Source: Bacteroidia bacterium (GTDB lineage Bacteria > Bacteroidota > Bacteroidia > Cytophagales > JAAEPT01). From it: a stretch of 64,000 bases of DNA. Each line of letters starts with the position of its first letter. The first letter of the stretch is position 1. The notes under the pieces were generated by a model. That model had not been told where the DNA came from, did not search any database, and saw only the letters and a program-made list of their open reading frames with translations. This document shows positions 5,990 to 47,055 of this stretch, one piece after another. The translations under genes were made by a program, and so were the position numbers. Location of the stretch: contig JAUIJC010000023.1 in assembly GCA_030431525.1 (NCBI GenBank), positions 1 through 64,000 of the forward strand, written 5' to 3'.

Positions 5990-6000
5990 TTTTGTTTTTA

Positions 6001-6079
6001 GTACGGAGTACTGAGTATCGAGTACGGAGCTTGCAGCCTTACATGGGCTCAATACTCCGTACTCTGTACTCAATACTCA
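6001..6079. repeat. TACTC-type inverted repeat between folC and trmB
   Basis: Two arms (about 6001-6030 and 6048-6079) built from short units such as GTACGGAGTACTGAGTAT and its complement. They form an imperfect hairpin around GCAGCCTTACATGG. The right arm reaches the folC stop. A short piece of the same sequence recurs at 47029-47055, and similar but different repeats are at 15621-15690 and 33869-33945. Confidence 0.75.
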
Positions 6080-6080
6080 T

Positions 6081-7307
6081 TCACAATACTTCCGCCACCA
6101 CAAAGGTGCTTCCTCCTACAAATACCAAATCATTAGCTTGAGCCTCCGCTTGGGCAGCTTTTAACGCTTCTTTTACATCTGGCACTACCTTCCCCTTCAA
6201 TCCAAGGGATTCAGCCTTTTGAGCCAATTCGGCTGCAGCCAAGGCCCGTGGCATATTTGCATTACAAAAATAATAATTCGCCTCTTTAGGAAACAGGGAC
6301 AAGACTTTAGAGATGTCCTTGTCGTTCACCATGCCAAGCACGATATGGAGTTTCTCCCATTGGAGTTTTTGGATTTCATTGATGACCGCCTTCACGCCAT
6401 CCTCGTTGTGGCCCGTATCGCAATAGGTCAATGGCTTCTCGGAAAGCTTTTGCCAACGACCCGTAAAACCAGTAATTTCCCTGAAGTTTTCGAGGGCTTG
6501 ATCAACGATTTCTTCGGGGAGAACATAGTGGTTTCTTAGCTGCTCGATGGCCGCTAATGCAGTGCGTTGGTTCTTTTTTTGGTAATCGGGAATGTGGGGG
6601 GAGACAGGGCGGTGCCCTGTCTCTACGGGGTCAAACGCCTTGATCAGAGGGGCATTTAATTTCTTGGCTTGTTCCTCAAATACAGGGAAAGTTTCTGGAT
6701 GAAATTCACCAATCACCACAGGAGTATCCTGTTTAATAATCCCTGCTTTTTCAAATGCGATTTCTGCCAAAGTGTTCCCCAATAAAGCCTGATGGTCCAA
6801 ACCAATATTGGTAATGACTGACACCAGTGGCTTAATGATATTGGTGGAATCAAATCGTCCCCCAAGGCCTACTTCAACCACAGCTACCTCAACTTCCTCA
6901 TCACGGAAATGTTCAAACGCCATGGCAACGGTCATCTCAAAAAAGGAAGGTTTCAGTTCCTTGATAAGTGCCTTATGGTTCTCCACAAAGTTGATGACAG
7001 CCTCCTCTGAAATCTCCGACCCATTGACCTTGATGCGCTCAGTGAAATTCTTGAGGTGTGGTGAAGTGTAAAGGCCTGTCTTTACCCCAGCACGTTGCAG
7101 AACAGCAGCAAGCATGTGGGAAGTGCTGCCCTTTCCATTGGTTCCAGCCACATGTACTGCCTTAAAAGCCTTTTCAGGATGTCCTAAGGCCTCACAAAAA
7201 CGAAGGATTTTATCCAGTTTGTAATTCAATGCCGAAGCGCCCTGTTGCTGATACATCGGCAATTGGGTGTAGAGAAAATCAAGAGTTTGTTGATAATTCA
7301 AGGACAT
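6081..7307 (-). CDS. folC: Bifunctional folylpolyglutamate synthase / dihydrofolate synthase
   Basis: Mur-ligase family enzyme that adds glutamate to dihydropteroate or to folates using ATP. The P-loop GTNGKGSTSHMLA is near residues 53-65, the central domain carries EVGLGGRFDSTN, and the C-terminal ligase domain has CDTGHNEDGV. Length 408 fits the family. Unusually, codons around 224-238 are made from a palindromic intergenic repeat (6601-6623 and flank), giving the peptide ETGHRPVSPHIP just before the conserved DYQKKN. The segment lies in a variable loop and keeps the frame open, so the enzyme may still work. Confidence 0.93.
   Translation of the reverse strand: MSLNYQQTLDFLYTQLPMYQQQGASALNYKLDKILRFCEALGHPEKAFKAVHVAGTNGKGSTSHMLAAVLQRAGVKTGLYTSPHLKNFTERIKVNGSEISEEAVINFVENHKALIKELKPSFFEMTVAMAFEHFRDEEVEVAVVEVGLGGRFDSTNIIKPLVSVITNIGLDHQALLGNTLAEIAFEKAGIIKQDTPVVIGEFHPETFPVFEEQAKKLNAPLIKAFDPVETGHRPVSPHIPDYQKKNQRTALAAIEQLRNHYVLPEEIVDQALENFREITGFTGRWQKLSEKPLTYCDTGHNEDGVKAVINEIQKLQWEKLHIVLGMVNDKDISKVLSLFPKEANYYFCNANMPRALAAAELAQKAESLGLKGKVVPDVKEALKAAQAEAQANDLVFVGGSTFVVAEVL
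6596..6630. repeat. Palindromic repeat copy inside folC
   Basis: GAGACAGGGC (6601-6610) and GCCCTGTCTC (6614-6623) form a hairpin, followed by TACGGGG. The same sequence forms both ends of the composite element at 29371-29486. Here only one half-element is present and it is read in frame as part of FolC. Confidence 0.88.
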
Positions 7308-29370: not shown

Positions 29371-29486
29371 CGTAGAGACAGGGCATTGCCCTGTCTAAAC
29401 CGCCTAAGTTGGCGCAGATACCCCAGTGTCAATTTATTTGGAGGCTTGCTGTGGGTGTGAAGACAGGGCAATACCCTGTCTCTACG
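29371..29486. repeat. Composite element with 26-bp palindromic inverted ends (GAGACAGGGC type)
   Basis: Left end 29371-29396 and right end 29461-29486 are inverted copies with one mismatch, and each folds on itself (ACAGGGC-ATT-GCCCTGT). The 64-base spacer includes CGCCTAAGTTGGCG. It lies between tex and the T9SS type A gene, touching the stop of the latter at 29482. A single half-copy is inside folC. Confidence 0.9.
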
Positions 29487-47028: not shown

Positions 47029-47055
47029 TACTCGGTACTTTGTACTCCGTACTCA
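47029..47055. repeat. TACTC-type repeat before the KDO transferase gene
   Basis: CTCGGTACTTTGTACTCCG and following bases carry the same units as 6001-6079. The frame of the next gene is open through it, but it is a repeat, not coding. Confidence 0.65.

Follow-up and report, generated by a model that had tools for sequence, protein, structure and literature searches.

In the window, that is, the whole stretch of 64,000 nucleotides that was analysed, a palindrome of the GTAG REP type lies within folC, a gene of the folate pathway that is usually taken as essential (Table 1). The product of the folC ORF matches the FolC model TIGR01499 with 367.8 bits (cut-off 162.65), and this is the only match across the source genome. 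The P-loop GTNGKGS is kept, as are the residues around HNEDG, and the top 17 PDB matches to the AlphaFold2 model (30 sequences; mean pLDDT 90.7, pTM 0.90) are all FolC/FPGS, the best ones being from Yersinia pestis, E. coli and Thermotoga. The mean pLDDT per block is 77 at residues 221–230 and about 65 at residues 231–240, and the REP-bearing linker is predicted to be a low-confidence loop within a normal FolC fold. The model and the kept motifs fit an enzyme that would be intact and carry a flexible linker.

Table 1. Features discussed in the text; positions refer to the window or, for the transposases of other genomes, to the locus named
Feature	Position	Strand	Basis
folC, bifunctional folylpolyglutamate/dihydrofolate synthase, 408 aa	6081..7307	-	ORF, TIGR01499 match, single copy, predicted structure, PDB matches
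GTAG-type REP, GTAGAGACAGGGCACCGCCCTGTCTC, perfect 10-bp stem, 3-nt loop	6601..6626	-	arm complementarity, genome-wide consensus
Nine REP-made codons, VETGHRPVS, FolC residues 228-236	6600..6626	-	ORF translation
PHIP codons, residues 237-240, beyond the palindrome	6588..6599	-	sequence, FolC alignment
Intergenic REP copy, consensus, 0 differences	29372..29396	+	genome pattern search
Second REP copy, opposite orientation, 89 nt away from the 29372..29396 copy	29461..29485	-	
Transposases carrying an embedded REP	L174:1195-1830, L182:1251-1862		GTAG-type palindrome in frame

The arms of the folC copy (6601–6610 and 6614–6623) are complementary at 10 of 10 positions. As in the GTAG REP superfamily, a 5′ GTAG foot adjoins a short palindromic stem, the whole being within the 20–40 bp size range, and the copy lies entirely inside an intact, conserved ORF. 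It is preceded by the usual C and equals the consensus of its subfamily at 23 of 25 bases, GTAG foot included, both differences being located in the loop. Its 3′ end is CCCC; several other copies of the genome end with CTAC. The reading frame runs through it as GTA GAG ACA GGG CAC CGC CCT GTC TCC. The preliminary description of this DNA had reported a dispersed palindrome read in frame within folC, which the ORF, the FolC match and the genome-wide repeat search bear out. It had also placed the encoded peptide before DYQKKN: the loop position and the frame are right, but PHIP is encoded outside the palindrome.

Since the count of a 10-mer within the window alone is not significant (6 matches, 2.9 expected), it is the search of the whole genome (4.24 Mb) that proves the repeat status of the palindrome. 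With a 25-nt pattern and up to 3 mismatches, 63 matches were obtained, versus 0 for the reversed pattern used as control, and a broader pattern gave 69 rows that correspond to 48 distinct places. The folC palindrome is therefore more than a chance repeat. Two subfamilies, GTAGAGACAGGGC and GTAGAGACAAGGC, are found in the genome, and the conserved unit (45 copies) begins with the C that precedes GTAG and ends about 4 nt beyond the stem. Like other members of the superfamily, these REPs have many dispersed copies (48 places), mostly outside genes. The view that the palindrome is otherwise intergenic holds for most of them but not strictly, as at 10 of the 48 places (for example L004, L005, L149, L162 and C29:97458) an upstream ORF of at least 100 aa is terminated by the TAG of the GTAG foot. 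folC is the sole place of the 48 found to lie in the interior of an ORF with family-model support; several others are found under ORFs of 90–136 aa, and four lie where an ORF with an uncertain start has its 5′ end (L152, L155, L161 and C29:98947). These four were rejected as further interior cases; the ORFs of L152 and L155 have Pfam matches, but these do not cover the REP. If coding density is assumed to be 85–90%, interior REPs (one or a few among 46 places) are far below random placement. The two copies at 29372–29396 and 29461–29485, in opposed orientation, display the arrangement of a REP dimer. An unrelated inverted repeat, with 33-nt arms that are 79% alike, occupies the gap between folC and trmB (6000–6079), and a weak third match to it is present at 47035–47051.

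FolC was aligned with 108 relatives (109 rows, the duplicates L114 and L115 being left out). The N of YQxxN is invariant (109/109), and the column before xYQ is a G in 104 rows and a P in two, namely the FolC studied here (P240) and L083. The residues VETGHRPVS, whose presence in REP-free relatives had been named as counter-evidence in the preliminary description, were looked for and found in none of the 108 aligned relatives. The loop of these relatives at the REP site is unrelated and unconserved, in agreement with one of the two outcomes anticipated there, but there is no simple gap, which was the other. Indeed, the segment that starts at VVIG and ends at the Y of YQxxN varies from 37 to 72 residues over the 109 FolC, with 41 residues in the FolC studied here and 39 in its nearest relative, L034. 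On the basis of these lengths, the REP probably replaced part of the loop and was not cleanly added: compared with an ancestor of 39 residues, about seven loop residues are exchanged for nine, with loss of the usual DLxG. As L034 is only 56% identical, it provides no comparable empty site; a clean empty site in folC was thus ruled out as a comparison. The FolC loop QTGLRPV of L122 was also considered as a second REP insertion and rejected, since the likeness is superficial and its DNA contains no palindrome.

Besides transposases, one other host gene carrying the same palindrome was found. It encodes a 430-aa HTTM/VKGC protein (L144:688-1980, genome G025), in which the REP is read in frame as VETRQCLVST between the Pfam HTTM domain (11–261) and the VKGC lumenal domain (287–429). 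The congeners of L144, at 83–86% identity, have linkers of other lengths at the REP site, and were therefore rejected as empty sites: the linker was replaced, without clean insertion.

The folC REP is a further instance of an already known kind of event, because in-frame REPs have been described in the relevant passages of two studies (PMC3733652, PMC6006769). The first of these, which catalogued GTAG REPs (Di Nocera et al. 2013, PMC3733652), reports, in the part considered here, GTAG-footed palindromes of 20–40 bp that have many copies, provide TAG as a stop codon and, in some cases, lie wholly and in frame within ORFs, including housekeeping genes and many DNA repair genes; Bacteroidetes, by contrast, are named in that part for CGTC repeats. 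According to the sections of the second study that deal with them (Quentin et al. 2018, PMC6006769), TnpAREP of subclass 2.4 are common in Cyanobacteria and Bacteroidetes and are associated with double-foot REPs, defined by 5′ GT[AG]G and 3′ C[TC]AC, of which frame-keeping copies occur inside tnpAREP between HuH and Y. Palindromes with a GTAG foot, several of them ending with CTAC, are likewise found here in Bacteroidetes, as are in-frame copies in tnpAREP genes, and the same palindrome as in folC is present in such genes of other genomes. The present case differs from what these sections describe by its host gene, folC, by the lack of the 3′ CTAC foot in the folC copy and by the fact that no such transposase was found in the genome. 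A more distant parallel is provided by the Rickettsia palindromic elements (RPE), which, in the portion of PMC2229807 that concerns them, are also translated in frame within conserved proteins, among which an RPE-bearing guanylate kinase is active; RPE differ from the folC REP by their size (105–146 bp) and belong to another sequence family. In a literature search on folC with REP or palindromic insertion, no title among those listed dealt with such a case, the supplementary gene list of PMC3733652 lying outside that search. folC joins the genes with an in-frame REP, in a Cytophagales genome where no cognate transposase was found.

The source genome contains three Y1_Tnp genes. Two of them, L001 and L002, are IS200-like and the third, L003, matches the model of REP-associated tyrosine transposases (NF047646; 87.7 bits, cut-off 80). 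No folC-type REP lies within 1.5 kb of any of the three, and the organisation of a REPtron, i.e. the same REP on both sides of a RAYT gene, was therefore not observed. L003 was rejected as the mobiliser, as its motifs (NHVH and YIHQNP, assessed by eye) are like those of subclass 2.6, no such REP is nearby and its distribution hardly tracks that of the REP. Indeed, the REP (with up to one mismatch) is present in 14 of 390 genomes of the order, source genome included, and transposases of the L003 type in 9 of these 14 genomes versus 188 of the 376 others. No subclass-2.4-like transposase was found in the source genome at E <= 1e-12, nor at E <= 10, and the REPs of this genome therefore look orphaned. 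The 48 near-identical REPs without such a transposase found could correspond to an orphan family, a recent loss or an assembly gap.

In other Cytophagales, the same 25-nt pattern is found in frame inside transposase genes, i.e. L174/L222 (genome G343), L182/L228 (G239) and L223 (G387); all the tnpAREP genes in which the same REP was found in frame belong to genomes other than the source genome. More generally, 30 loci of transposases of the subclass 2.4 type (L222–L251) were screened for embedded palindromes, L237 being the one that could not be parsed. GTAG-type palindromes with differing arms are present in 19 of them, in the loop that follows the HUH motif MPNHxHG. These transposase-embedded REPs match the TnpAREP subclass 2.4 as presented in the sections of PMC6006769 cited above, and hence are known. 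The phase GTA-GAG-ACA is used in all four interior cases that were inspected singly, i.e. folC, the HTTM/VKGC gene and the transposases L174 and L182. By our reading, it is also used by 17 of the 19 embedded palindromes, among which L174 and L182 are counted again as L222 and L228, in counts that ignore shared descent; the other open phase is used by the remaining two (L250 and L251).

Globally, it is very probable that the surface linker of folC received a REP of the GTAG superfamily in this lineage, and that the REP survived there as a passenger. This REP, which is similar to the double-foot REPs of TnpAREP subclass 2.4, would presumably have been transposed into the linker by a TnpAREP that is not found in the genome now. 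Part of the old linker would have been exchanged for the REP, with loss of the conserved glycine, while the catalytic motifs stayed. Survival would result from three fits: a net length change that keeps the frame, the stop-free GTA-GAG-ACA phase and a linker free in length. The folC case shows by which route such inserts can survive, namely variable-length linkers and a stop-free phase. As to the origin, the REP may instead have arrived through recombination with another copy or gene conversion from it, or through template switching at a hairpin, with no transposase involved. This is a distinctly less probable route, yet one to be taken seriously, as it would agree with the lack of a cognate transposase found in the genome and with a change that is a replacement and not a clean insertion; against it, the flanks in folC, compared by eye, have no more extended homology in common with other REP sites.

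As to the effect, the peptide encoded by the REP would be translated and neutral, and we read VETGHRPVS as a tolerated passenger of a variable linker, which is enough for the data. The preliminary description went further and considered the repeat as domesticated. On such a reading, the peptide or an mRNA hairpin would now be useful in FolC or for its expression, which appears very improbable. The stem is perfect and the hairpin in the mRNA has a predicted energy of −18.9 kcal/mol, but the other copies of the genome are equally perfect, so that this perfection is uninformative about use, and the loop is unconserved in the relatives and modelled at low confidence. Selection or use is thus not supported, and a tolerated passenger also explains a copy that is two loop bases off the consensus. 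That the palindrome arose by chance, from ordinary codon drift in a loop that varies freely, has a negligible probability: several folC genes do contain chance palindromes with 8-nt arms, but the match to the REP consensus, GTAG foot and preceding C included, already contradicts it.

The phase bias suggests a further, speculative reading, to which we give only a small probability: REPs of the folC type could be pre-adapted to translation, as mobile linker cassettes whose stop-free phase is kept by life inside a transposase gene. A copy embedded in a transposase must remain without stop codons in one phase, namely GTA-GAG-ACA (peptide VETxxxxVS), and landings in the same phase in host linkers would therefore be harmless. 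Should the bias persist once descent is corrected for, it would tie selection on the transposase gene to the harmlessness of the REP in host genes. Among the transposases screened, L232 (G298) and L248 (G381), which belong to one genus, have the same loop with versus without the embedded REP and form an occupied/empty pair.
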